64,000 bases of DNA from NCBI GenBank assembly GCA_026874595.1, contig CM049317.1:36922401-36986400 (forward strand), given 5' to 3'. This DNA comes from Sipunculus nudus (Eukaryota > Annelida > Sipuncula > Golfingiida > Sipunculidae). The notes under the pieces were generated by a model, which saw only the letters and a program-made list of their open reading frames with translations, was not told the origin of the DNA and made no database searches. This document shows, one piece after another, positions 3,546 to 45,165 of the stretch (position 1 is its first letter; the number at the start of each line of letters is the position of its first letter). Made by a program: the position numbers and the translations under genes.

Positions 3546-5048
3546 TAAAATAAAAAAAAAACCGCCCGCCCGCAGTGATTTCTGAAAAAACGTACATGTA
3601 TTTCAGTCATCACCATGGTCGCAACCACATGAGATAAATGGAACCCTTTACCAGAACCGCTAGACCGAATCGCTACTCAAATAATACTGAATCCAGTTTC
3701 TCATATTTCAAATGAGTTAGCAATAAGCACATGCACTGAAATGAGGGGAAATCCAAAATGATTTCTCAGTTTAATTTGTTTCTTGGAAATACGTGATAAA
3801 ATAAGTTATACATGGGCGATCGTTACATTTCGGCGATTTGAGGCCTCCCAGGAATGGTGTCGAACTTTAAATCTATAAGCGAACCGAGAATATTTGTGAA
3901 GACTGCAAAACCGTAGAAGTAAGTATATTGGTTTCTCGTTTAGCAAGTCTTTCTCCCATGTTTTGGCAGTAACATGACGGTTTGCTGGCTGTTCACTCAG
4001 CGGCCCAAATCAATTTTATGAAAAGGGGTATGTCTAGCTTTGCTTTTGATAACGATGTTTTTGCAATACGGAACAAATGGAATGTATAATAACTGAAAGC
4101 TGTCTTTGTCCCAATTCTTTGAGGAAGAACTCGATCCACAATTTTAGTATATGTAGCACATACCCAGGTTGTCAGCCATCTACAGTTGAGCGTTATCAAA
4201 CATGCCGCACTATATTAATGCATTTAATAAAGCTCCCTTATATCATGGTTAATTACAGACTTTTACCTATTAAAAAGAATAAACGATGCGTTGAATACTC
4301 TTAGTTCATTATTTCCCGTATGTAATATACACACATTTCTAAAATAGTTTTAAACATGTGGAATCAGAAATGATGATCTCTTTATTCTTTCTTTTAAATA
4401 TTTCCCGTGTTTCACATACTTTAGACGTAAAAATGCAACTAGGACATTTTTTCGATTATTTTCTATGTTTACATAGCATCTTCATCTTCAGTACAGCTAG
4501 TTATACGAGAGATGCTACAAAACAATGTACTGTACTTCAAGAACACGTCATTAAAGTGAGGCGAATTAAAAAAGTCTCTGAGTATTGCGATACGCAAAAA
4601 ATATGTATTAATTTTGAAAAATCTTGTTTCTTAGGTTATTCAGAAAATTTCAAATTTGTACAAACGCAGTATTACAAGATGGACAAAATAGGCCGAATAT
4701 GAGAAACAAACAAATAGATTGGGGAGTGTTCGGAAAGATATACAAATTAAAAACTTTTCCAAATCAAAAGGGCCAGTATTTTGTTAATATAATTTGTGAA
4801 AAAAAATAGTATAACTAAACCAGAAAGAAACAGGCGTAACTGTCGGGAAGCATACAAATAAGATGAGAGAGGAAATTCATTCTTGATATTTCCGAAATAG
4901 ATTATTAAATAACTGTCGTTAAACTGTTGAAATTAGAGTGCAGAAGTAAATAGGAATTCTAACAAATTTTCTCCGTGGAATACTGATGAAAATTTACTTG
5001 AACATTATATCATCAAATATACCTATATTTTATCATCACGTAAACAAA

Positions 5049-7602
5049 TAGGGACTGCATCCTTGTTGTTTACATCCGGGCAACTGCTGGCCTGGTCAGG
5101 GGGTTGGTAGGCTTTTGCCTACCCCTTATATGTAGGTTATCCTTTGTGTAGTGTTACATGTGCGACCAGTATCTCTCTATCCACACTTATGTGCACCAAT
5201 CAATTTGTTGGCAAATAAGTTTATGCAACACAGCATATTTACACAATGTTAGTAATTATATAGTGGTCAGCTTCCCTTTCCTGTCATTTACAAAGTTACA
5301 ACAGTTAAACGGATATAGGGCTATAGCAGCCAAAGACAGCTTATTTGTGGTACGTATCACTAAATATATAGATTAATATAGCAGTTTGTTTTATGCAGAA
5401 TCTTCTGTCTAAAGTCTAAGAAGTATTGTCTCATAAGAGTGGGTATTCATTATCTCATCTTTTTTTTCCATTAACAATTCCAAACTTAGCTCTAGGACCC
5501 CTTTTATGTACATATCCTGAAAGCTGAGAATAATATATGCACTCCACGTTTTGCTTTAAACAATATTTTACTGCAAAATAGCAAGAGGATAAGAAAACAG
5601 GGCACCGCCCTATATTAATTCTTCTCCTCACAGACGAATTATTGATTCACATAATATTATAAACACTATGTTTTTTAACAAAGGTTGACATCATCTAGAT
5701 TTTAGAATATTTTATGTTTCATATAATTCATTTTATAAAAAAATATTTATTTACATAATAATTTGAGCAACATGCAAAAGAGTGACAGACTTTCTAAATT
5801 ACAGTATGCTGCTTCATTTAAATTTGAAATCTAAAAGCATTATAAGTAATCAATTAAATGAAAAAAAAAATAAAAAGTAATTTTTAAATTTGAAACAATA
5901 TATAAAATATAAATTTATCTCAAATAAAAAGGAATTATGTACGAATTTGTAATTTGAAAAAAAAGAATATAGGTAAAACACCCCCACCTCAATGTTGTAT
6001 AGTAATGGTAATTGTATTTTAGAATTATTTTTTTTTTATTTAAAATTGAAATGTGAAATTCCTTTTTCAATTTATTGGGGGAAATAAATATATGTTTTTG
6101 CGCTGCAAAAGCAAAGTCATGTTGGTTGATATCTAAACATTATCAGTGCAAGTCGCTAGAAGATTGAATTTAAAATGTTTGCACAAAGGTATTCACACAT
6201 TACGACAAGTAGACCGACACGTATTAGCTAACTGTGAATTTCTTTGGGAAAATATCAGAAAAAAAATGTGCTTAATGATATGTTTAATATGTTACCGCCG
6301 CTTTTTTTTAGGTCATACACATATATGCATGATGTGCGAGGTTTAGAATTCTAATGCAATTATCATCGAGGAACTAGTGTTCTTTTTACTTATGTAACGT
6401 CAGTTATGTGGAGTAATTAATATGATGATATGCAATAAATGGACTAATATCCGTCCATCATGTTTACTTGTGAAATTTGAAATGTCAAATTTCTTTTTTC
6501 TTTAATTTTCATAAAATGCATGTTAGTTAAGATAAAACAGAAATTAAAGCATCATTTTTATAAGGTTCCATGTGTTTAAATGAATTCTCTTTGACACTTA
6601 ATGGCTGAGAATATAAACACATAAACGTAAACAGTTAAAAGTAGATAAAATCAAATTTTGACATCAGCTGTCTTTGTATATAATCAGTTCTAATAATACT
6701 AGAACAAATTAATTAGATTAGGAACAATGACAGTAAAAATTCCATGCATTTTTCCTATTGTCATTCAGGTTGAACGGGCCATGTGGAGGCAAGCCGTCAT
6801 ATAGATTTCCTAATTAACAGATAACTTAATGATTGTTGTTATTAGTGCCATTTTTAGCAGGCTGTGATTACTTATATCAAAAGTACATGTATTTACAATT
6901 GTAGTAATGTGCTATTGTGACTGTACATAAGCTCTCAGAGTGTGCTTATGTAGAAGGGTGGTTCATGTAATTAAGTAAAGATGCACAAAGTATTATCATT
7001 AATGGATATTACTTAATATGAGTTTACAATTTAATTGGCTTAGGTTTGCAGCCTGCTTGGGCTTGGTAAATTGGTACTAATGAAGAGTCAGGGGCACTTT
7101 TTTTTCTGACAGAAGGCTGACAATTTGGCTAAAAAAAGGGGGGTATTAGGCCTATAGGACTGTCATTACAGCTCCTGTATCGGGCTTGATCATACTCCAT
7201 CTGGTGTAGCATAAATATATCAGTTACATGATACAAGGCAGTAAACTAGTGATTCTTTAATGAAGCATGTCCATAGTCAATTGAGAAAATGGGGGTTAGT
7301 GCGTGTCTGCAAGTGGATCATTGCATAGACTCAGCATGCAGCCTATAGAAGCTTAGACTAAGTCCCTTTTACTGCTAATTGGCACATCCAACAGCTGTAC
7401 AGCTCATTGGTGTATGTTATCTTGCAATTAATTTTATAAGAACGACTTATTTTATGCAGAATATTAACAATATAGAACACAGAGTAGGCCCAGGGAGGAA
7501 GGAATGCAACTGATACAATCAGCATCCCTAAGTGTTTTGCCTACCAGCACTGCAAGTGTTGCCAAATCACGTGGTCTGTGACGTCACGATGTAGTCCCCT
7601 GT
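5049..7602. mobile_element. 2.55-kb insertion with imperfect terminal inverted repeats and 5-bp target duplication
   Basis: Present in the left arm, absent from the right. The paralogous right-arm site (around 43,977-43,985) has a single ACAAA; here ACAAA occurs at 5,044-5,048 and again at 7,603-7,607. The ends are inverted repeats: TAGGGACTGCATC at the left, and ACAGGGGACTACATC read inward from the right, with TGGTAGGC recurring about 50 bp inside each end. A perfect 7-bp hairpin (GGTAGGC, TTTT loop, GCCTACC) lies at 5,106-5,123. No transposase motif is visible, so it is probably a non-autonomous DNA transposon of unassigned superfamily. The motif at 6,078-6,125 (containing GCGCTGCAAAAGCAAAG) recurs at about 16,093-16,142. 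Confidence 0.6.
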
Positions 7603-7978
7603 ACAAAGTTATACATCGCCGAATATGGCTTTGTTTGATTTTCTTGTAACAATTGAAGAACTGGCTTTCCTAATTCAAGTAAAATGTTCCCATACACCAA
7701 ATGGCCAAGTACAACTTTAAAGACAAAATTTGACTGTTTAAGTTTCTTTAATTATTCACATTTATTCTTAATTATTATCGAAGACCTTATTATTTTTATA
7801 CTTGAGAAAACAATCAGAGTGAAAGTCCATTTTATATATCAGAAACCATCAAAGAAGTCTCGTTAGTATTCTTAAGGCTGGGGTTGATAACTTTATATCA
7901 GGGCCCTATTTATGCATCCCGCAAATGTTCTTAAAAGATGTGAATTCTTGCGGTTACTGACATTTTGGTTGAGGAATA

Positions 7979-7981
7979 TAA

Positions 7982-8016
<35 letters not shown>

Positions 8017-8018
8017 AA
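7979..8018. repeat. (TA)n microsatellite
   Basis: Interrupted (TA)n run in the left arm. Its right-arm counterpart is the (TA)n tract that holds the pogo-like MITE at 42,394-43,231, so this is the empty-site version. Confidence 0.9.
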
Positions 8019-10027
8019 ATATCAATACATATTTGTATGTATACTCCCCTTCATCGGCTGTTAGAGGGTATCATATTGTAAATGCGAAATATATCAGAAT
8101 ATAATGCAGACTTGGCTTCGTTACCCTTTGTTATTTTTTTGCTGACATACAAAATATGTGCTTCTGAATAAATATGGCAAACATTGTGAAATGCATGTAC
8201 CTTTTTTTGTTCAAAACGTTTTATGTAACCTAGACTTATAAATGTCAAATTTTCTTCGAGCCTGCTACTATATAGATCCGGATCGAAAAATATGTATACC
8301 TCTAAAGAATGCCACAATTTATTAAACAATTCAACTTCCCTAACACTTATCTGCTGTAATAAATCAAAACGGAACGTAACCATTAAATATGAACAAGGAT
8401 ACATTTATCCCAGTACATGTCAACTGTCCTGCAGTCCCATGTGTAGGTGAAAGGAATAAATATTTTGTAATATTACGTTTAACCGCTCTAATATTCACTC
8501 CCCATACGGTCCACAAACCCTATCAGTATCATCAAAGGCTGTTTAAAACATTTGCCCAATTGTTAACCCATGAACAACATAACACGGAGATGGGCTTTAT
8601 TACCCCAAGCTTACACAGCTAGTCTGAATCTGAAAAGTTCGCGTTCAATTTCGCATTTTTGAATGACACAGCCAGCGATAGCTAACTTAGCAGAAATCTC
8701 CATCCAGTCGTTATGCCTGTCCAGTTTTTTTTTTTTTTGTATAGTGCAAGTCATAGAAAGAAAACCTTAACAGTGTTTGCAGATGAAATCAGTAAGCCCG
8801 ATTTGGACTTGTTCGCTGCGTAAGCTTTGTTGTACTGATAGAAAACAATCGGATTTTTTTTTTACGGAAGAGATAAAACTGTCCAAAATATCATGTGGTC
8901 ATGAACTCACTACATTTTAGCGTTCATGTAAATGTATCGTGCATAACGTAACTTGCTAACATTGATCTAGATATATTGCCGTAAACTGGTCGGAAGATGA
9001 CAGAATGTTTTCAATCAGTAGGTCCTCACAACAAGTCAACTGAAGTGTTTGCGTCAACATTACCCTAGTAAACAATGATTATAGTATATTGTTTTAGGAA
9101 TCTTTATTTAGTGTATCCCATATAAATGATTAATTTACTGTTCCCCACCAAGGGACATAAAGACCAGTTTGACAAGAAACTTAAAAATGCAAATCCTGGG
9201 CGCTTTAGAAATCAATTGGAATCTCGTTGATCTCACAGTACATCATTTTTAATAAACAACTGAGAATTCAATCCTACGAGTGTGAGTCTTCATTGGTGGT
9301 GAGATCATTTTCATTGTTGAAAGGCATTTTGAGTTAACATGGAGTAACGCACATGTTTTGATCTCTCTCTCTCTTGCCACGAAACTTATAGCATGCAGAT
9401 TGTGTGAGAGCCACCTCTCTGGAATAAACTGTGGATTTTCACATATGGCGTAATGTGTTCATATAATACATCACTGTGTTTATGAATACACGGAACTGGG
9501 AGAATGCAGGACCCTGCTGGATTAAAATAATAGCTAAACTTGACATTTTCTCCAAGGTTTGTATGATAATTAAGCCTAGGCACAATTGGAGTGCTTAGAG
9601 CACCCAAATGTTGGCTGCCATACATTTGCATTTGGGTTGATGGTCACTGATTTGCACCTTTGCAAGTGGTTGGGGTTATGACTCCAAGTAGGTCTATCGG
9701 TACGGTACAAATGTTTGCTGAGCTATTATTGGCGTTACTAAGTAGCTCATGTACTGCTTTAGATTTCACACACAAATACATATCCCATATATATGTTTTC
9801 ATTAATGTAAGGATTATCTAATACATATAAGATAATTTAGTTCACTTTTGTAATCAATGTTGTCTGAAACCGCATTGTGTATGACATTGTGTTATACTTC
9901 CTTTTAATGTGACCATGCTTGTGTCGGAATAAATACTACTTAATGTACACATCATTTTGAGTGATTTTTGCATGGTTTTATAATTGCGTGGAGCCTACCA
10001 GCGAAGACAGCCGAACTGCCCTCAGCA

Positions 10028-10575
10028 AAGGCCGGAATACCTTCGTGATCGCTTGGTGTTCAAGCAGGCGTGTGACAAAACCGAACAATGAAGGTTTATT
10101 GTTCATATGAATTACGCCTTCTCTCAGTGACGGATTTAAGGCATGATATATGACCCAGTCCCTGGGCTTCTTGCTTAATCAGTAAATGTAAAAAACATAT
10201 GACCCTTGATTTAAGAAAGGGGTCCAATCCAGAAAGATTAAGGACAAAACCTAATAAAATGTTCCAAGGTCTTAAAAAGGAGGGGATCCGTGCAAAAAAA
10301 ATTGGTCTGACACCCTGAAAAAGGTTAAGACGGCTAAATCGGAGGGGGTGGGTGGTTCGGACCAATTTGAGAAAATTACTTATCTCATTTTATACATATA
10401 AAAAGCTCGGTTACCGGGTTTATCAGCTAGTAAGAGACAAAACACTTTAACTTGCTCCAGGTAGAAAGTGAAAATTCAAAAACTATTTTAATTCAAGAAA
10501 ACTTCTCAACATGTTATTCATGTTATGTCTATTCGGACATTTCTGTCCCCGAATAGGCACAATATGAGCTAAAGT
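10028..10575. other. ~0.55 kb present in left arm only
   Basis: The left/right alignment jumps here: CCGAACTGCC at about 10,011 matches the right arm near 37,360, and matching resumes near 10,600 against about 37,310. Either an insertion in the left arm or a deletion from the right. No terminal repeats or coding motifs could be fixed; the 89-codon minus-strand frame inside has no recognisable domain. Confidence 0.45.
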
Positions 10576-11654
10576 AACCCTCCGCTCTGAACAAGTGAAT
10601 ACGTTTTGCAATATAATGTGGTTAGTTCTAGGAATCGTTAGAAGGCGTGAAGCAATAATTTTCGATACATCAGTAATAAACTGTATCTGCCCACAAAGTG
10701 CTATGTTGATTAAAACTTTTCTCAGACGATGATTTAGTTCATGGAAGTCAGGTCATGGGCGGCAAGTAAAGATGCTGGTCAGTTACATAAATATCATTAA
10801 TTATATATCAGTGCGGTTTTCACGGTATACTTTATGGCGGCTGCCTGGGATATATGCATAGAAAGGCCGGAACCAAATGTTTTGCAGGCCAAACAGTGTA
10901 TAATAAATCGAGATATACTCGGGTATAATGTCCATTTTCATAATGTTTAACATTAGCTTTTGGGGTCTCTGCGTACCAGTCTTCTATTTTTATATATAAT
11001 AAGAACATATGTGTCTCTCAAGAGAGTTCCTACAAGATTCAGGATATATTACGCATTATGGTGTCTTCTACGTGTTAATATGCTCTTTTTAAAACTTATC
11101 ATCATACGTGTTTTTTAGAAATATAACTAATATTTGGTTAGCGAGCGTCATGTGAAATTTCACAGAGGTTTCGGGCAGTATTGTATTTTAATTGGATACG
11201 TTACGTTTTCGGGTAAGAATCGTACAATGTGTGGCAAATGTTGAGACAAAGACAACGACGTTTTAATAAGGGAAAGAAACTCATCTTGATCAGCCACTCA
11301 GGAAAACCATTGCATCAGCATAAATGTAGTTTTGTGCTATTCAACGGACATGCAGACTCTTTGTTGTTCATTTAAGCTTATTATGGTAACAGTTACAATA
11401 TGTTTTTTGTAGAGTCTAGGGTGTATGGTATGTAAATATTTAGTATATACATTGGTATGTCATTGTTATCTGCTTTGCACCTTCAAAAACAAGATTTATA
11501 TGAAGCAGTTTCATTTTGCTTGCATTGGAAATATGTTCAACAGTCCCATTCAAATTTAAATAGTTTAACAAAATTCCAGGACGAAACATTGCCATTTTAA
11601 TTAGCAGACTTCTATATTATTGGAACATTAATGAAAGTACTTGAGTCAGATGGA

Positions 11655-31255: not shown

Positions 31256-33010
31256 TAGATTACGGGTAGTCGACAAGCGACTACGTGTATCCGCCTAAAT
31301 CAGAGTGGAAAGGGTGAAGTGAGGCATGGATTAAGTGACAAGGGGAAATAGAGTGAAGTGTTGCATATTAGCATGGATGTCTGCAGCCAAATTGTGTATG
31401 AAGGTTGCCCCCCCCCCCCCCTACCACAAAATCCAGAAAGCCGTCCCAGTTGTATACATATGCAAAATTTAAGGCAGATAAGTCAAACCACTACATGTAT
31501 ATGAGTGATTTTAGCCCGTGGCAGACAATCAGATGGATGCTGAGCAAAAATGGTTGCAGGTGACGGCACCAGTTTTGCGTATGATAAAGAGCTATGTGAG
31601 AACTATACACATGCAAAACTTTGGCCCAATCGGTCAAACGGTTCCCAAGATATGAGCTTGGATGTCTGCTGCATAAACTAGAATGCAGGTGGCTCCACCT
31701 GTCATAAAATCAAGAGAGCTGTCGGGGATGTATAAACCTGCAAAATTTTAGCCAGATATGTCACACCACTGCCGAGATATGAGTGATTTTATCCCATGGC
31801 AGACAAACAGACAGGAGCTGTGCAAAAATGGCTGCAGGTGGCGCCACCAGTTTTGCGTATGTTATAAAGCTCTCCAAGGGCTACATTTGTGCAAAAAATT
31901 TTCCTGATCAGTCAAACAGTTCCCGAGATATGAGCTTGGATGTCTGCAGCGTAAACGTGAATGTAGGTGGCGCCACCTGTCATAAAATCAGAAAAGCTAT
32001 CCAGGATGTATACGCATGCTGAATTTCAGGTGAATTAGTCAAGTCACTGCAGAGATATGAGTGATTTTAACCCAAGGCAAACAAACAGATGGACACTGTG
32101 CAAACATGGTTGCAGGTGGCGCCACCATTTTTTTGTGTATGTTATAAAGCTCTCCAAGGGCTACATTTGTGCAAAAAATATTTCCTGATCGGTCAAACGG
32201 TTCCCGAGATAAAAGCTTGGATGTCTGCAGCGTAAACGTGAATGTAGGTGGCGCCACCTGTCACAAAATCAGAAAAGCTATCCAGGATGTATACGCATGC
32301 CAATTTTCAGGTGAATTAGTCAAGTCACTGCAGAGATATGAGTGATTTTAACCCAAGGCAGACAAACAGATGGACACTGTGCAAACATGGTTGCAGGTGG
32401 CGCCACCAGTTTTTGTGTATGTTATAAAGCTCTCCAAGGGCTACATTTGTGCAAAAAAATTTTCCTGATCGGTCAAACGGTTCCCGAAATATGAGCTTGG
32501 ATGTCTGCATTGTAAACATGAATGTAGGTGGCGCCACCTGTCACAAAATCAGAAAAGCTATCCAGGATGTATACGCATGCCAAATTTCAGGTGAATCAGT
32601 CAAGTCACGGCAGAGATATGAGTGATTTTAACCCAAGGCAGACGAACAGATGGACACTGTGCAAACATGGTTGCAGGTGGCGCCACCATTTTTTGTGTAT
32701 GTTATAAAGCTCTCCAAGGGCTACATTTGTGCAAAAAAAATTTTCCTGATCCGTCAAACGGTTCCCGAGATATGTGGGTTTATGTGTGGAAACAGACGCA
32801 CAAACTGACGCAGAGCGCAGAGGAAAGGTCAGAGGTCAAAACAAAATCGGGGCGCAGCAGTTCACATGTGACCCGAACATAATCCCGGGTTTTGTAAAAT
32901 TCTACCCAGTGGTTACGGAGGAGTTCTCCGGAAACCTACGCGGCAGCGGCGGCGGCGGCGTGCAGCTGAAAACATAGTATCCGCAAAACTCTTTTTTGGC
33001 GGATACAATT
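31256..33010 (+). mobile_element. Helentron-like non-autonomous element with satellite core
   Basis: The left end has a 7-bp hairpin (GTAGTCG 31,266-31,272 / CGACTAC 31,278-31,284) followed by GTATCCGCC at 31,287-31,295. The right end has a hairpin GTATCCGC (32,977-32,984) / GCGGATAC (32,999-33,006), so GTATCCGCC at the left is the inverse of GGCGGATAC at the right. Between them is a tandem-repeat core. A 5' subterminal repeat, a satellite core and a 3' hairpin is the layout of Helentron-associated elements (pearl and DINE types) known from bivalves and insects. It lacks the CTRR end of canonical Helitrons and has no Rep/helicase. Confidence 0.5.
31515..32780. repeat. dimeric satellite array, ~280-bp higher-order unit
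   Basis: The landmark CCCATGGCA/CCCAAGGCA starts at about 31,515, 31,793, 32,071, 32,352 and 32,632, a period of 278-281 bp. Each unit contains the perfect 12-bp palindrome GGTGGCGCCACC (or a near copy) twice, about 140 bp apart. The two halves share GAGATATGAG and TC--TCAA-C landmarks, so the unit is a dimer of diverged ~140-bp monomers. The 60-86 codon frames on both strands here are by-products of the repeat. Confidence 0.85.
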
Positions 33011-34689: not shown

Positions 34690-36510
34690 CACCCTATCTG
34701 GTAGATGGTTTTGAATTCTGAATACTGTTGGTTGATTTTAATATATACTCCTTGTTGCTTAGCCACTGCCTTTTGTTATGCTGTGTGCCTTAGGGCTGAT
34801 ACGTTGGGTGAGCCATCAAATACCACACAATCTCTAATGTACCATGGTAAACCCGGTTTACCGACAACCCTGTCCAACATTTGGTGAAGGGGCCTTTTCA
34901 AAGGGCCCTAGAGGGGTTTCTTTTATCGGATGATTTTCATAAACTTTCACATTGCTATAGTCATATAAATCCTTCAAATTATTTTGATAGTATATGGATT
35001 ATTTACAATATATGTTATATTATATTGTCATAAATCAAGCAATGATGGTGTTTTACCCAAGTTTCTTATCTGAAACACAATCTCACATAACGAGTGTGTC
35101 TTTTCTGAAGTATCATTTCATGGAGTCCCTGCGTATCCATTTTTAAAAATTTTTCAGAATAGGTCCAGTATTTCGGCGGGATCAATGTCTTCTGTGGGGT
35201 ACTTGTTGCATTGGGTAGAGTGTGCATTACTACTGTCTTCCATGACTGTCGGATAATCTCTTTAACATGCTTGTAATCTTACTTGTGCAATTATCGTTTG
35301 GGTTCTAAGTATATCACTGTAAATTTCCTGGGGATACCATTATCGTTCAGACTGTCTGTGTACCGTGCATGTTTTCTATAGATAATATATTAAGTTGTCA
35401 GACAACCATCTTACCATACTTACGGATGTACGACTTCAGTACGTTGTTTTCAGTGTTTAGAAAGACGTGTAACAAAAATTATAACATTTTCTGTTTTAGA
35501 CATGTTAATTCAATGTTATTCCATTGCAAAACGTATACCCTAAATTTTAAAAGGTCTTGAACATTAAAATTCTTGACATGTACGAAACTGAACTCACTTT
35601 CTAAAAAACCTCGCCAACACCCACATGCTAAGATAATAGTGTACAACTAGTATATTTCCGTTGTAAGCATAGAGACATAATTTTTTTACAATATGTGTCT
35701 TTACACGTATCCTTTCAGCATTTGGTCAAGGTTACCTTGTGTGAGAATGGATATATTTTTACTGCAGTTACCCTAACCCTTAAAAATCTTAGGAGTTGGA
35801 TAGAAAAACTGTAACTGCTAGCCGCAGTATTATGTATAAACTGACAACACACTACCAATTTAAATCTTTTAAGTTTACAAACATAAATCATAAACTATGC
35901 GTTTCACCTGCATTGGGCGGCGACATCATTTTAAAGAACATTAATTTTATAAACATATCTGTAGTATGGTACATAAAGAATGAAGCTGCGATTCCAGATT
36001 CAGTTCTGATTTCCATTGTTAAGACTGACCAAACCTTGGGTCCATTTATTCGAATAAATAAGGGAATAATTATTTGTAAAGTTTAAAGTTAGAGCTGTGA
36101 TAAATAACCAAAGAATCAGTCAAACATTGCGTTCACATTCAATTTAATGATACAGAGAATGTATTAATTCACGTCCAATTGAATTCGTATTATAGAATAT
36201 CCTCTTTAAAAAGAGATGTATATTACTACAACCCCCATTCTGGTACTAATATGGTTTTTAACAGCGCGGTAATATCATTTTGACGAAATGTTACGTAAAC
36301 ATTACAAAAATGTTACGATGAATATCAAATAAGACACTGGTTTTAATAAAAGAGTTACTTTAGCAATTACCGATGTTTCCACTATTTAGAAATTGACACA
36401 ATCCCTCATCGTACACCATACCTTACCATGCGCATTGTATGTCCATCGACTCATATTAAAAATAACAACCTTTTAACGTAACGGATTCCTAGGCTAGTAC
36501 AATAAGGACT
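34690..36510. other. no gene recognised
   Basis: AT-rich, short unsupported frames only (up to 96 codons). I could not align this interval to the left side of the spacer, so the inverted duplication appears to stop near 36,510. Confidence 0.45.
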
Positions 36511-39086
36511 TGTGATGAATATTTAATTTCAAATGGGACTGTTGGATATTTTCCCAAGTCAAGCAAAATGAAACTGTTTCATATAATTCCAGGTTTACGA
36601 ATGTGTAAAGCAAATAACAATGACATACCTATGTATATACCAAATATTGACATATCATACACCCTAAGCTCTACCAAAACAGAAGATTGTAACAGTTACG
36701 ATAATAAGTTTACTGAACAACAAGTCTACATTCCGTTAATAGCACAAACTTACATTTATGCTGATGCATTGGTTTTCCTAGATTGGCTAGTCAAGATGAG
36801 TTTCTTTGCGTTATTAAAACGGCTTTTAAGAGCTTCAACATCCTCCACACATTGCACGATTCTTACCCGAAAACGTAACGTATCCAATTTAAAATATCAT
36901 ACACATACTGCCCAAAACCTCTCTGAATCTAGTAGCATCTCACTTGAGAGACACGGATGGTGAACGTATTATGAAAAGAAAAAACAAAAAAAAAAACTGG
37001 TACGCAGTGACCACAAAAGCTAAGGTTTAACATCAAGAAAATAGACATTTTACCCGAGTATCTCTCGGTTATTATATAATATTTGGCCTGCAAAACATTT
37101 TATTCTGGCCGTTCGATGCATAAGTCTTAGGCACCCCCCTTTAAATAAATCGTGGATACGGCACTGTTATATAATTAATGATGATTTGTAGCTGACCAGC
37201 ATCTTTGCTTGCTGACCTGACTTCCATGAGCTAAATCATCGTCTAAGAGAATGTTTAATCAGTGTAGTACTGGTTTATGGTCAATTATTGCGCCACACCT
37301 TTCTTAGAAATGATAACCTTATAATTTAACTGTACTCGGAACGTTTGAAAGGCAGTTCGGCCGTTTTCGGTGGTAGCCTACAAGTTATTTTAAAACCACG
37401 CAAAAATCACTCAGAATGTTTACATTAAATATTATCTATTCTCATATAAGCAAGGTCACTTTAAAAGGAGCCATAACACAGTATCATACACAGCGCGGTT
37501 TCAGACAACATTGAGGACAGAAGTGGGATTAAACTCTCTTATATGTATTTGATAATCTTTACATGAATGAAAACATATATAAATTACCGTGAAATATGTA
37601 TTTGTGTGTGAAAGATAAAGTAGTAAATTAGCTACTTAGTAACGCCAATAATGGCTCAGCAAACATTTGTATCGGACCTCCTCGGAGTCAGAACCCAAAC
37701 CGCATGCATAGGTGACCGTCAGTGACCATCAGCCCAAAGGCAACTGTATGGCAGCACAAATCCGGATGCTCTAAACACTCCAATTGTGCCCAGGCTAAAT
37801 TATCATACACAGCTTGGATAACATGTCAAGTTTAGCTATTCGTTTAATCCAGCAGGGTCCTACAGTCCCCCAGTTCTGTGTTTTCATATACACAGAGATG
37901 TATTATGTGAACACATGACGTCATATTTTAAAAAAACCTATAGTTTAATCCACAGAGGTATCCCACACACAATGTGCATGTTAGGGATTTCGTGGCAAAA
38001 AGAGAGATATCAAAACATGTGCCTTATTACATGTTAACTCCAAATGCCTTTCAACAATGAAAATAATTTTCCCACCTCTGAAGTCTCACACTCGTTGGAT
38101 TGAATTCTCAGTTGTTTATAAAAAATGACGTACTATGAGATGAACAATATTCCAATTGATATATATGTACACACACACATATAAATTCAATCTATAGTTC
38201 ACATGTAAGGTAATAGAATGTACAAGACCACTGTATTTGATATTGCTGTCAACATGTTCACATACTATTTTAAACAGGGATTAAGAATATATGACAGGAA
38301 TCACTAAAATAGTGCACAGAACATGCACAGAAAAAATAAGCTTGCAGTAATGACTTCCCGAAAATCCTCCTTTTCAAACACTAAAACTTTCGTGTATTTA
38401 TACAATTTTCTAAAATTCCCAGAATTTGTATTTTTAATTTTCATTTACAAACTGGTCTTGATGTCCCCTGGAGAGGAATGATAAATTATTTATTTATATA
38501 TTTACTAAATAGAATTTTCTTAAACAATATACTATAATCGCTGTGTATTAGGGTATTGTTGCCGCAAACGTTCCATCGTCAGCATGTTGTGACGACCGAC
38601 TGATTGAAAACATTATGTAATCGTCCGAAAAATTTACGGAAATATATCTGGATCAATTTTGGCAAGTTATGTTAGGCACGATACTTTGACATAAACGTTT
38701 AAAAAAAGTGAATTGATGACCGCATGATATTTCGGCCAATTTAACTCTTCGGTAAAAATTGATTGTTTTCTATCAGTACAACAAAGATTATGTAGAGAAC
38801 AATTCCAAATGGGGCTTACTGATTTTATCTGCAAACACGGTTAACGTCTACTTCCTATGACTTGCACTATACAACAAACTCAACAGGCATAAAGAGTGAT
38901 GATTTCCGCTAAGAAAACTATCGCTGGCTGTGTCTTTCAACAATGCGATATCGAACGATATCTTTTCAGCTTCAGACCAGCTGAGTGAGCTTGTGGTCAT
39001 AAATCTCATCTCCGTGTAATGTTTTTTTTTATGGATTTAGACTAGACTAGATCTAGTATTTTGAGTCACTAGACAGACACGGTTGA

Positions 39087-39103
39087 GGTGGTCTGGGACC
39101 ACC
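39087..39103. other. hairpin near one end of the 2.79-kb insert
   Basis: GGTGGTC, loop TGG, GACCACC form a perfect 7-bp stem. An outer stem AGACAG (39,071-39,076) / CTGTCT (39,112-39,117) encloses it, giving a compound stem-loop about 30 bp from the insert terminus. Confidence 0.6.
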
Positions 39104-39465
39104 GCCCCGGCCTGTCTCTTTAGACTATTATTTTGATGCCGAACATTGCTACACAAGCCAAGCCAAGGAGCCGCCAAGAGCCACCAGCATGCACCCGCAC
39201 CGGTGACCGAGAAAGTTACATCATCCACACTCACAAAGCCCCGAGCGGGCCACTCACCGCACGGTTACCAGCAGCAAAGCCGCTGCCCCCAAGAACCCGG
39301 TCGCGAGCGACATCCCCGAGCAGAATGCCCACCACAACAGAGAGACCCGAACACAAGCAGGGAAACCCAGACCGCCGACAGAACAACTCCTACCGCGAAG
39401 AGCCGGACTTCCTGTGACTTGGATCGGGCAGGCTGTCTTGGCTTGGTCTTCAGCTTGTCCCCGAG

Positions 39466-39497
39466 CAGTGGGCCTAAAGTTGTCTGTTTGCCCACTG
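39466..39497. other. hairpin 1 of a covarying pair
   Basis: CAGTGGGC (39,466-39,473) pairs with GCCCACTG (39,490-39,497) across a 16-nt loop starting CTAAAGTTGTCTGT. See hairpin 2: same loop, compensatory stem changes. Confidence 0.75.
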
Positions 39498-39652
39498 TCA
39501 GGGATTCTTGACTTGTCTTGCTTGTCTTGACTTGGGTTCCGGCTGTCGGGGTGGTCTTGTCTTCTCTTGGCTTGTCCCAGGGCTACCAGTCTTGGCTTGG
39601 TTTTGGTCTTGAGGCTTGGTCTTGGGTCTTGAAGTCTTGGTCTTGTGGCAGG

Positions 39653-39684
39653 CAGCGGACCTAAAGTTGTCTGTCTGTCCGCTG
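39653..39684. other. hairpin 2 of a covarying pair
   Basis: CAGCGGAC (39,653-39,660) pairs with GTCCGCTG (39,677-39,684), extendable to a 10-bp stem with flanking GG/CC. The loop differs from hairpin 1 at one of 16 positions. Two stem pairs differ, both by compensatory change (T-A to C-G, G-C to A-T). Confidence 0.75.
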
Positions 39685-40511
39685 CCAGGTCTGTGAGTGA
39701 TTAATTAGGCCTAAATAGGAGGGGTAGTCCTAAAAAGGACTGCTGGGGGTCTTGTCTGGTCTGTCTGGAGCTGTCCCGGTGTAGGTCTGGGTAGTCGTCT
39801 TGGTAATTGCTGTCAGTGGGCGGATGGGATGTGCGCTCGTCTGGGTGCCCTCTAAACTTCCGCTGGTGGTGTAGGGGGGGCTGCCGCTGGACTTGCGCGT
39901 CGGTGTCGGATGCTGTTGGTGGTGGTTGTCAGGGGTAGTTGTTGTCCGTGGTGGGGGGGGGGGGGGGGGCGTAGATTTCTTTATAATTTTCTAAGTATCA
40001 CATGGGATTTTTTAAGAAAATACCTCATGATCATTTACCCTTATATTGGCCTAAAGGAGATATCTATAGGAGATATCTTTATAGTTAGAAATCTGGCCGG
40101 CCGGTGGGGCTCTCAGTTTGTACTTTTATATTAAGTATCACATAAATATTTTTAAGAAATATTTATGATCATGTACTTTTATAGGAAATACTTATAAGAA
40201 GTATTTTTATACAAGCGCAGACTGAGAGGAAGGGGGCAGGGATAGTTGAGGCTGGTGGCGGCATCAGTTTCCATCCACTTGCTAGCGGCCGGCTTCAGTT
40301 TCCATGCCACTGGTCTTGCCGGAAAAAGCTGTAATTACTAATAAACTCTATAAATATATCTTATATATGAGCGTCGGATAACCAGATATTGCGTCGATAT
40401 TGTGAAAAATACAAAAAAACAAAAGGGTGAAAAACCGGTAAAAATCGTAAAAAAGTCGGGTTAGTGTGCTTGAAAAAATGAGGAGTGAGGTGGTGTATTT
40501 ACATGAATTGT

Positions 40512-40515
<4 letters not shown>

Positions 40516-40542
<27 letters not shown>
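40516..40542. repeat. 27-base T-tract
   Basis: Uninterrupted T run within the insert. If the insert is transcribed from the minus strand, this would be an internal A-tract, hinting at a composite origin. Confidence 0.9.
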
Positions 40543-40679
40543 GTTAAAAGTTAATGGTGTTTAAAACAGTATGGTGCATTTTATATATATGGGTTTAGTA
40601 TGGTTCTATTCTAATTGAGGGTGTATTAGTATTGATTAGTGGAGCGGTGTTGTGTCGGTGGATATGTATTTCTCCGAGT

Positions 40680-41480
40680 TTGTATGTTTGTCCTGTATGT
40701 TTGAATGTATTTTTGATATTTGTGGGAAGGTAGCTCGCGACCCGACCGAGCCTGCGGGTTACTCATCCCGTGTTTTGGTTGTGTATTGTATGTGATTTGA
40801 TTACAGATGAATATGTTTTTAATAAATCTCGGACAATAGTAGTGTCCCGGTATGGGCACTTTGTCTTTGATTTATGTTATTGTGGATTTTATTAAACTAT
40901 TGTATCCTTTTTGAGTATTGTTGTTCTAAATTCCTTGTAGTTTCTGTTTTTATATTGTTTGTTTTATATTTGTGGGGAGGTAGCTCGCGACCCGACCGAG
41001 CCTGCAAGTTACTCGTCCCATGTCTGGTAATGTTATGTGTGTGGTTTAATTGAAGATGATTATGTTTTAAATAATTCTCAGACAATAAAAGTGTCCCGGT
41101 TTGGGCACTTTGTCTTTGATTTATGTTGTATTGGAATTTAATAAACTGTTGTATTGTTTGGTTGATGGTTTGTTTTTATTTTATTGTATATTTGAGGGAA
41201 GGTAACCCGCGACCCGTCCGAGCCTGCGCGTTACTCATCCAGATATATAGTTTTTTGTTTTAGGTTTTAGTTAAAGAAGTTAATGTGTCGGTTTTTTATA
41301 TAAATCTCAGACAATAATAGTGTTCCTGTTTGGGCACATTGTCTTTGATTTATGTTGTTTATGGATCTTAAATAAACTATTTACGCTGTTTTTTTATAAA
41401 TCTTAGACAATAATATTGTCCAGGTTTGAACACTTTGTCTTCGATTTGTGTTGTTTTGTTTTTAATAAAGTGTTGTTTGA
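40680..41480. repeat. tandem array of 220-250 bp units
   Basis: GGTAGCTCGCGACCC or GGTAACCCGCGACCC occurs at about 40,729, 40,979 and 41,201, and GACAATA at about 40,832, 41,081, 41,310 and 41,406. So there are three full units plus a partial one with spacings of 249-250, then 222-229, then 96. Each unit has an AGTGTCCCGG-NT-TGGGCACT imperfect hairpin followed by TTTGTCTTTGATTTATGTT and an AATAAA-like box. On the minus strand two units encode a similar peptide (QARSGRELP), but frames do not continue through the array. Confidence 0.8.
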
Positions 41481-42337
41481 TATGAGGATGTTGTTTTGTT
41501 GTTTTTAAGGTGTAATGGGAGGTTTTATTTTACTAGAGTGATAAGTGATCGGTTTCGGGCGGGAGCGGTTTGCGCTCTTTTAATTGACCTCTAATTTTGT
41601 GATGGATTTAGTGGAGTGAGGTTTGTTTTTGTGCGAGTTCCTTTATTGTATTATTTGTTCGTGTGTAGTTTTTATTCGTTGTCATGTCGGGGCGAGTGTT
41701 TTATTTTATTTTTGAAGGGTGAGTCTTATTATCCTTTTGTTAGGAAATGGGTGGTTTTGTGGTTTATTTTTATTGTTATGTTTTTTGGGAGTCGGTTTGG
41801 CCGGGGGGCGAGGCGGATATGCTAATTAGGGGTTTTTATGGATTTACAATGGGGCGAATGTTTTAAACACCCCTTTATGATATTGACAGGGTTTGTGGAC
41901 TATACGATGACAGAATATTAGGGCGTTTTAACGTAAGATCACAAAATGTTTATTCGTTTACAGCTACACATGCTTCAGGACTGTAGAACTCTACTGGGAT
42001 AAATGTATAAATCTACTGGTAACGTTACAATTTGATTTGTTTACAACAAATAAGTGTTGGGGAAGTTGGCCTGTTTAGTCGATTTCGGCATTCTTTAGAG
42101 GTATACATAGTTTTCCATCCCGATCTATATAGTAGCAGACTCGCACGTAATTTTTACATGTTACATAAAACGTTTATACCAAAAAAGTATTTCGCACTAT
42201 ATGCCATATTCGGCCAGAACCACTTATTTGGTAAAAAAATGTCAGTAAAAAATTAATAACGGCTAATGAAGCCAATTGTGCATTATATTCTTACATATTT
42301 CGCATTTACAATATGATACTCTCTAACAGCCGAAGAT

Positions 42338-42340
<3 letters not shown>

Positions 42341-42393
<53 letters not shown>
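42341..42393. repeat. (TA)n microsatellite, left of pogo-like MITE
   Basis: TA tract that continues at 43,232-43,292 on the other side of the MITE; the two were one tract before insertion. Confidence 0.95.
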
Positions 42394-42396
<3 letters not shown>

Positions 42397-43228
42397 TGAA
42401 ACCTTGTTGTGCCGAAGTCGGATGTGTCGAAAAACCGGATGTGTCGAGGTGTTTTGTTGGTCCCAAGCTAATATTTCTATCGCTTAACTCGAAGTCATGA
42501 TTGGTTAACAGTTGTGGAATGCCCGTAAATCAAGACTGGGCCGTGATGACCAGTCATAAATAATAAATACCGACCAGGCTCCTACTCATCAAGCGCGATG
42601 GCTCTGTCGACTCTGTCAAGGTCATGCCGCTTTAATGTTTGGACAACAGTTGTTCACGGTCCAACAATCATACCTACGGCCGCTATGACTAGTTACACAA
42701 TAAATACCGGCAAGGATCTTACTCTTCACGCGCGATGGCTGACAAACCTAGTCCGTTGTTTACTTGTTCGGCCAATTTGGTACCCATGAACATGCCTTTC
42801 TTCTCTTGCCGACAAAGCATCAATGAGAAGTTATTGATAAACCAAACATTATCAAATCCTTACCTTTCATGTGTCTTGGATAAAGTTGAACTGAAATGAT
42901 CAGAGGCCAATCATTTATTGATTTGTATGCTTTTATACACGTACATGTATGTGCTCTAATTTTAATTTCCTTATTTACCTAATCCTAATTTTGGTGGTAC
43001 TTATATGTTTTTTATTATAAATAAAAATTGTATTTAAAAATTTGAGTTGTTCTTTCACGAAAACATTTGTGAGAATCATATGATATAGGCCCTATATACA
43101 TGTGCAGTATTCATCGATTACAATCGAGGCTGAAGAAGGTTGAATATATTGAACATCGGTTGTCTCGAACCCCGGTTGTGTCGAAGTAAATTAACCAGTC
43201 CCTTCGACTTCGACACAACGAGGTTTCA

Positions 43229-43231
<3 letters not shown>
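42394..43231. mobile_element. 838-bp pogo/Tigger-like MITE
   Basis: Terminal inverted repeats: CAGTGAAACCTTGTTGTGCC at 42,394 and, read inward from 43,231, CAGTGAAACCTCGTTGTGTC, continuing to CGAAGTCG (about 28 bp, two mismatches). TA flanks both ends inside a (TA)n tract, and the left-arm counterpart (about 7,979-8,018) lacks the insert. CAGT-starting repeats and TA targets are typical of the pogo branch of Tc1/mariner. Subterminal GTGTCGA motifs recur. The 63-codon frame inside shows no DDE or HTH motif; non-autonomous. Confidence 0.85.

Positions 43232-43292
<61 letters not shown>
43232..43292. repeat. (TA)n microsatellite, right of pogo-like MITE
   Basis: Other half of the split tract described at 42,341-42,393. 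Confidence 0.95.
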
Positions 43293-43294
<2 letters not shown>

Positions 43295-43694
43295 TAAACT
43301 AAATGTCAGTTACCGCAGGTATTTACATATTTTTAAGAACAGTTGCAGGATGCACAAGTAGAACCCTGCTGTGAAATTATCGACCCAAGCCTTAAGAATA
43401 CCACCGGGAATTCTCCTGACTCACAAATTCGATTATTGATAGGAGAACATTATTGCTAACATTATATAAAATATTGGTTTGATAATGCACCTTGTTAAAG
43501 AAAAAAAGTATCATGTGAATTCTTTTCTATTAAAGTAAGCAAACAAAAAAAAAACGAACAATGAGCCCCCTCAACTAGGCTGCCTGCTTGTGATGGGACA
43601 GCCATCTCCCTCCTTTCTACATAACTGTGAGTAAACAAACACCAGTCTTGACAAGCCAGCCGAAATCTTACTGATTTATATTGAATTAATGCTG

Positions 43695-43699
<5 letters not shown>

Positions 43700-43762
<63 letters not shown>
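43700..43762. repeat. (TA)n microsatellite
   Basis: Perfect TA tract at the border of about 0.34 kb present only in the right arm. Confidence 0.95.
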
Positions 43763-43765
<3 letters not shown>

Positions 43766-45165
43766 GAAATTCACTCTTGGATATAGGTACAAATATATGA
43801 TTTGATGTATATAATAAAATTTTAGATATGTCTTTAAGGTTGTACTTGACCATTTGGTGTAATTCTATTTGCTTGTTTTTCTCAGTATCATGCGAACGTT
43901 TCACGTGTAGTAGGAAAGACGGTACTTCAATTCTTGTAAGAAAATCAAACCAAACCATATTCGGCGATGCATAACTTTGTTTTTGTGAACATGCTGCTAA
44001 AATATAGGTATTTTTCTTCCATTGATGATATGATGTTCAAATAAATTTCTCTCTAAACTTTTTTTATTGCTTCCCGACAACTACGCCTGGTTCTTTCTGG
44101 CTTAGTTCTTATTTTTTCACAAATTATATAAACAAAATACTGTCCCTTTGAATAGAAATATGTTTTTTAATTTATCTTCCCGAAGACTACCCATTCTATT
44201 CAGTTGTTTCTCACGATTAGCTTATTTCATCTACCTTGAAATACTGCGTTTGTACGAATTTGAAATATTGTTTATAATCTAGGAAACTAGATTTATCAAA
44301 CTTAATAAAATTATTTTGCATATCGCAATAATCATTCTTATAATAATTCGCCTCATTTTACTTACGTCTTCTTTAAGTTAAGTACGATGTTTTATAGCAT
44401 CTCTCGTAAAACAAGCTTTACAGAATATGAAATTGTTATGTAAACACAGAAAAGAAATAAAAAAATGGCCTAGTTGCATTGTAAGATCTAAAGTATGGGA
44501 AGTATTTAAAAGAAAAAAATAACGAGATAGCCCATCACTTCTGATTCCACGTGTTTAAAACTATTTAAAATATGTGTTTATATTACAAACAGAAAATAAT
44601 GAACTTAGGTATTCCATGCTTCGTTTATACCATTTATAATAGACAATTTTCTTTTTAACCTCCTCTTTAGAGCCTTCTCTGCAATATAAATTCATTCATA
44701 TTTGAATAATTACACTTGCCGAATTTGGAGAGAGTTTCTTATATTCTTAAACAATATTGCAGAAGTTTGATTCTTCTTTAGAGGTAAGATTCTGTAATTA
44801 ACCGTGATATAAGGAGATTTATTAAATGCATTAATTAAGTGTGGCGTGTTTGATTATGCTTTACTGTAGATGGCTCACAACCTGGGTATGTGCCACATAA
44901 TCTATAAACTGTGGACCGAGCGTTCCCATAGTTAACAAAATTGAGGGACATTCTGTAAGTATGTATTCCATTTACAGAAATTACATTTGTAGAAATATCG
45001 TTATCCAAAGCGAAGTTAGACATATCCCTTTTCATAAAATTAATTTTGCCGCTGAGTGAACAGCCAGCATACCGTCAAGATACTGCCGCAATAGGGTTTG
45101 AAGGCATGTATTATGTTCGCTTGCTAGTGACGACCTCTCTTACTTCTACAGTTTTGCAGTCCTCC

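Follow-up and report, generated by a model that had tools for sequence, protein, structure and literature searches.

A 2.79-kb non-coding insert in the Sipunculus nudus genome, very probably a 5'-truncated copy of the 3'UTR of an AP-endonuclease-type LINE

A long non-coding insert flanked by a long target duplication raises the question of what it is and how it arrived. Such an insert of 2,793 bp (39,040-41,832) lies between perfect 14-bp copies of TTTTTATGGATTTA in the 64,000-nt stretch of Sipunculus nudus DNA that was analysed as a whole (the window). The initial annotation had taken it for a structured non-coding RNA element mobilised in trans, of a kind that could not be assigned. Our analysis makes it almost certain that the insert is a minus-strand, 5'-truncated copy of an AP-endonuclease-type LINE of about 9.1 kb, which has two long ORFs and a 4,054-nt 3'UTR.

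The insert, its borders and the empty site

The 14-mer TTTTTATGGATTTA occurs exactly twice within the window, both times on the plus strand, and its two copies abut the insert at either end, confirming the borders first proposed. In shuffled controls with up to one mismatch allowed, the mean was 0.28 matches and 6 of 100 shuffles held at least two; chance is nevertheless untenable for the pair, because the two copies are placed exactly at both insert borders and an empty site exists. The features of the locus are as follows.

39026..39039, unstranded: target site duplication TTTTTATGGATTTA, the copy adjoining the 3' tail of the element
39040..41832, minus strand: 5'-truncated LINE copy (very probable assignment) comprising the last 2,793 nt of the 3'UTR
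39040..39050, minus strand: 5-nt repeats forming the 3' terminal tail, read as (TAGTC)n on this strand
41829..41832, minus strand: 5' truncation point (minus-strand CCCC), next to a stable hairpin that longer copies contain
41833..41846, unstranded: target site duplication, the copy adjoining the 5' truncation point
8564..8577, minus strand: empty counterpart of the insertion site within the inverted arm, minus-strand sequence TTGTTCATGGGTTA

The window carries an old inverted duplication (about 4000-11600 versus 36500-45100, with about 76-82% identity), and also, at 31365-32774, about 4.6 tandem copies of a 280-bp repeat unit. The left arm of the inverted duplication lacks the insert: the alignments 7983-8574 versus 42393-41835 (76%) and 8573-9211 versus 39026-38407 (79%) run straight over the insertion point, leaving a single diverged copy of the site at about 8,564-8,577. 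The uninterrupted paralogous site described earlier is thus real.

No ORF of at least 150 aa was found in the insert, and tblastn of ORF1 and ORF2 of the LINE described below gave no match in the window at E <= 0.01, in agreement with the earlier statement that the insert is non-coding and carries neither reverse transcriptase nor gag. The window likewise contains no tRNA and no Rfam family at gathering score, which bears out the earlier remark that a plain SINE layout is missing; a SINE, which would carry a pol III promoter with a tRNA, 5S or 7SL head, was ruled out, as neither a tRNA nor an Rfam head was found there. When Rfam was run over 11 fetched loci, some of them holding longer copies, the sole match was one tRNA outside the element, and a known ribozyme at the ends was ruled out, no ribozyme family reaching the gathering score.

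Copies in the genome and the probable parent LINE

The search for further copies that the initial annotation had proposed was run against the insert's own genome (1.43 Gb, 153 contigs) and returned at least 130 matches, a lower bound because 40 of 391 candidates were scored; 38 loci (L009-L046) were then fetched around listed copies. At the left end, 43 of 47 rows, the window copy included, match at 90% or more and start within 4 nt of GACTAGACTAG, and the remaining four match at 74-77%. The rows outnumber the distinct copies, because at least two copies are each covered by two overlapping loci. This common left border consists of GACTA repeats, which on the minus strand form a (TAGTC)n 3' tail. 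The right end behaves differently: among 37 rows, one is the window copy, two are partial matches short of the border, and all 34 rows outside the window that reach the border continue past TTAGGGG with ATGC(C/T)AGCTGC. Further alignment was made for 27 of the right-border continuations. Since the left border is common and the right border is overrun by other copies, the element has a fixed end on the left and a truncated one on the right; a fixed 3' end with variable 5' truncation is what is found in LINEs of the AP-endonuclease type.

The termini that were expected to be shared therefore hold on one side: other copies end at 39,040, with the GACTAGACTAG end as 3' tail, and do not end at 41,832, where the GCTAATTAGGGG end is the 5' truncation point of this copy. 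The earlier reading had taken the plus strand while the element lies on the minus strand, which is how these two ends are to be understood. A cut-and-paste DNA transposon or a Helitron, with ends that resemble those described here by chance, would likewise explain why the insertion is clean and an empty site exists; we ruled it out and give it practically no chance, as the right border is not common to the copies, the single shared end carries a 5-nt repeat tail, the duplications vary from 11 to 14 bp, and elsewhere the insert sequence follows a reverse transcriptase gene. An rDNA-like or satellite unit was also ruled out, because copies lie on many contigs and the long ones have target duplications and coding frames.

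When followed past its right border, the insert sequence joins a LINE, so that the insert corresponds to the distal 2.79 kb of the LINE 3'UTR. The LINE with the same 3' end whose search had been suggested was found in two long copies (L047/L027 and L050/L042), both containing the join between ORF2 and the 3'UTR, and the C terminus of ORF2 (its last 14-45 residues) stands upstream of the 3'UTR in 6 of the 38 loci (L010, L018, L024, L029, L030 and L043). The proposal of an unassignable RNA element mobilised in trans is not supported. In L047 (contig C7), gag-like and endonuclease/reverse-transcriptase frames follow past the right border, interrupted at about 6,350-8,620.

One copy, in locus L050 on contig C17, has both frames open. 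Its ORF1 is open over 593 codons between stops and shows, by pattern, two CCHC zinc knuckles at residues 412 and 431, as in AP-endonuclease-type LINEs with a zinc-knuckle ORF1; no Pfam family was detected in it at E 0.001. ORF2 (L050:3028-5934) is open over 969 codons between stops and encodes an AP-like endonuclease followed by a reverse transcriptase, the ORF2 layout of that LINE type (Pfam RVT_1, 3.8e-41; Exo_endo_phos_2, 2.7e-20), and 11 PDB sequences match it, L1 ORF2 and R2 proteins among them. The ORF2 frame overlaps the end of ORF1 and has no methionine before residue 86, which already lies within the endonuclease match (residues 48-250); the C17 ORF2 may therefore need another way of initiation, or this copy may be damaged. 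L050 overlaps L042 exactly, which places 4,054 nt between the ORF2 stop codon and the tail. The whole element measures about 9.1 kb (5' end near C17:8,908,445, 3' end at C17:8,917,590), of which the 3'UTR makes up about 44%.

Over the 400 nt adjoining the truncation point, the C17 copy and the window copy are about 81% identical. Among the matches listed, L010 is one of the nearest relatives of the window copy (94% over query 4-1665); of ORF2, L010/L052 retains no more than the final 90 aa, which are 93% identical to L050. A point against the assignment is that the subfamily closest to the window copy yielded no copy in which both frames are open. The open frames of the C17 copy may yield working proteins.

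Target duplications, start points and RNA structure

Four long copies are flanked by duplications of 14 bp (C17), 13 bp (C7), 12 bp (C6) and 13 bp (C16), and across the copies duplications vary between 11 and 14 bp where readable, with none detected by script in most rows. For the 31 rows that have both of their ends within a locus, the script scored repeats of at least 11 bp other than mere tail repeat. Such repeats appeared in 6 of them, namely the window copy, L015, L017 and three rows sharing one tRNA-Asp target (L022, L026 and L032); in the other 25 it returned tail repeats, shorter matches or nothing, many starts being alignment breaks or copy junctions. For L015 the border repeat is 14 bp by eye; its target is a tandem repeat, which makes the longest repeat found by the script exceed the duplication. 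The 3' end of the tRNA-Asp gene (L022:4295-4367, L026:4248-4320, L032:4282-4354) holds copies with an 11-bp duplication, and on contig C2 these recur at intervals of about 7 kb, probably reflecting one insertion that was amplified later.

Copies are also found stacked on one another. In 9 of the 38 loci (L014, L017, L020, L021, L036, L037, L038, L039 and L041), the 5' terminus of a second copy in the same orientation lies about 14-35 bp past the 3' tail, a head-to-tail nesting that perhaps arose by re-use of the duplicated target site; in a tenth, L034, the 5' terminus beyond the tail is in the opposite orientation. In L016, L021, L023, L031, L044 and L045, no gap separates the 3' tail from the truncated 5' end of a further copy, an arrangement to be expected if template jumping or tandem duplication had taken place.

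In longer relatives, the truncation point of the window copy is adjoined 5'-wards by a hairpin of -38 kcal/mol (z -7.0, 90-nt stretch, L044). We mapped 20 start points, hand-chosen from the rows of the duplication script with locus edges and presumed alignment breaks left out; four lie beside hairpins (L001, L033, L037 and L039) and the others do not. A strong paralogous hairpin starts at about L042 position 717, and L033, L037 and L039 begin where it ends, at positions 757-763; the upstream flank of L039 is the same as that of L038. With four of 20 chosen start points so placed, stalling of the enzyme at the hairpin may perhaps have caused the truncation of the window copy.

Start points also bear on the possibility that a promoter within the LINE 3'UTR drives a non-coding RNA, which the LINE mobilises in trans as a long SINE-like derivative. 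Near-common starts are seen for L021b, L036, L038 and L031 at L042 positions 1166-1176, and L021a (798) and, ambiguously, L016 (810 or 1182) begin at, or close to, the corresponding position in the repeated unit. The window copy, however, begins elsewhere (L042 position 1514), several of those copies are clustered against other copies, and L038 and L039 have one upstream flank with different starts, so that the starts are not all independent; moreover, truncation at RNA structures could make hot spots without any promoter. We regard such a derivative as very unlikely and retain the truncated LINE copy as the reading of the insert.

Within the window copy, the 3'UTR contains two repeated units, D6 in four copies and D10 in three.

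40818..40882 (copy a), 41067-41131, 41296-41360 and 41392-41456, minus strand: hairpin repeat D6
40718..40772 (copy a), 40968-41022 and 41192-41244, minus strand: repeat D10, a weaker hairpin

D6 folds better than its shuffles, with z of -4.1 to -5.6 on the minus strand, which is the strand of the LINE transcript, and -1.3 to -4.7 on the plus strand; D10 is weakly better (-1.3 to -2.6 and -0.1 to -0.8, respectively), and the first 921 nt of the insert, read in plus-strand sense, show no folding advantage over their shuffles (z -0.01). After near-identical rows were dropped, 8 of 50 full-length D6 matches and 11 of 71 D10 matches were kept, and covariation was weak, with two-sided changes in 1 of 20 D6 pairs and 1 of 16 D10 pairs. 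Given the strong z-scores and the weak covariation, D6 is likely to be structured, short of proof by covariation.

Origin of the insert and its relation to known LINEs

Target-primed reverse transcription with 5' truncation is a standard LINE outcome and fits the arrangement observed directly (borders, duplication, empty site, common 3' tail and, in other copies, the 3'UTR downstream of ORF2), and the earlier suggestion of this route is upheld. The review PMC2881922 attributes 5' truncation in LINEs to incomplete reverse transcription. In the proposed sequence of events, the enzyme of the LINE would nick the target, reverse transcription would be primed at the (TAGTC)n 3' tail, and 2,793 nt of the 3'UTR would be copied before a stop beside the very stable hairpin; the insertion would leave the 14-bp target site duplication. 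The copying was presumably done by the enzyme of the same LINE.

We take the element to be an AP-endonuclease non-LTR retrotransposon, possibly Jockey/I-like. It resembles AP-endonuclease LINEs with gag-like zinc knuckles in its CCHC motifs in ORF1, its endonuclease and reverse transcriptase in ORF2, its short-repeat 3' boundary, its 5' truncation and its target duplications. Its 4,054-nt 3'UTR with repeated structured units may set it apart from them. Drosophila telomeric LINEs HeT-A and TART form head-to-tail arrays, and HeT-A has a long non-coding 3' part; our LINE shares the head-to-tail copies with both and the long non-coding 3' part with HeT-A, whereas the copies that we read have target duplications and its long copies encode an endonuclease. 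According to PMC2881922, short sequence repeats are one kind of LINE 3' boundary, and I-factor ORF1 has three Cys-His motifs, in contrast to the two knuckles seen by pattern here; Pfam at E 0.001 detected no RNase H domain in ORF2 of L050, which distinguishes it from the I factor as that review describes it. We did not find the element in the literature searched, including the accessible text of PMC10294476 on mollusc LINEs.

The structured 4-kb 3'UTR is mildly unusual, and so is the nesting of copies head to tail. LINE 3'UTRs usually contain a sequence or structure that the enzyme recognises (PMC2881922). A further idea is that the repeated, structured 3'UTR is a functional module that has its own transcript start or a stall and template-jump signal, and that would give rise to shorter RNAs, mobilised by the LINE enzyme and joined into head-to-tail arrays; we consider this unlikely.

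Reading the insert as a truncated copy of a LINE with a very long 3'UTR disposes of a misleading clue: other inserts that are long, non-coding and bordered by a long target duplication can have this origin too, and reading the wrong strand conceals it. The LINE family offers a natural data set for stops of reverse transcriptase on structured RNA and for head-to-tail stacking.
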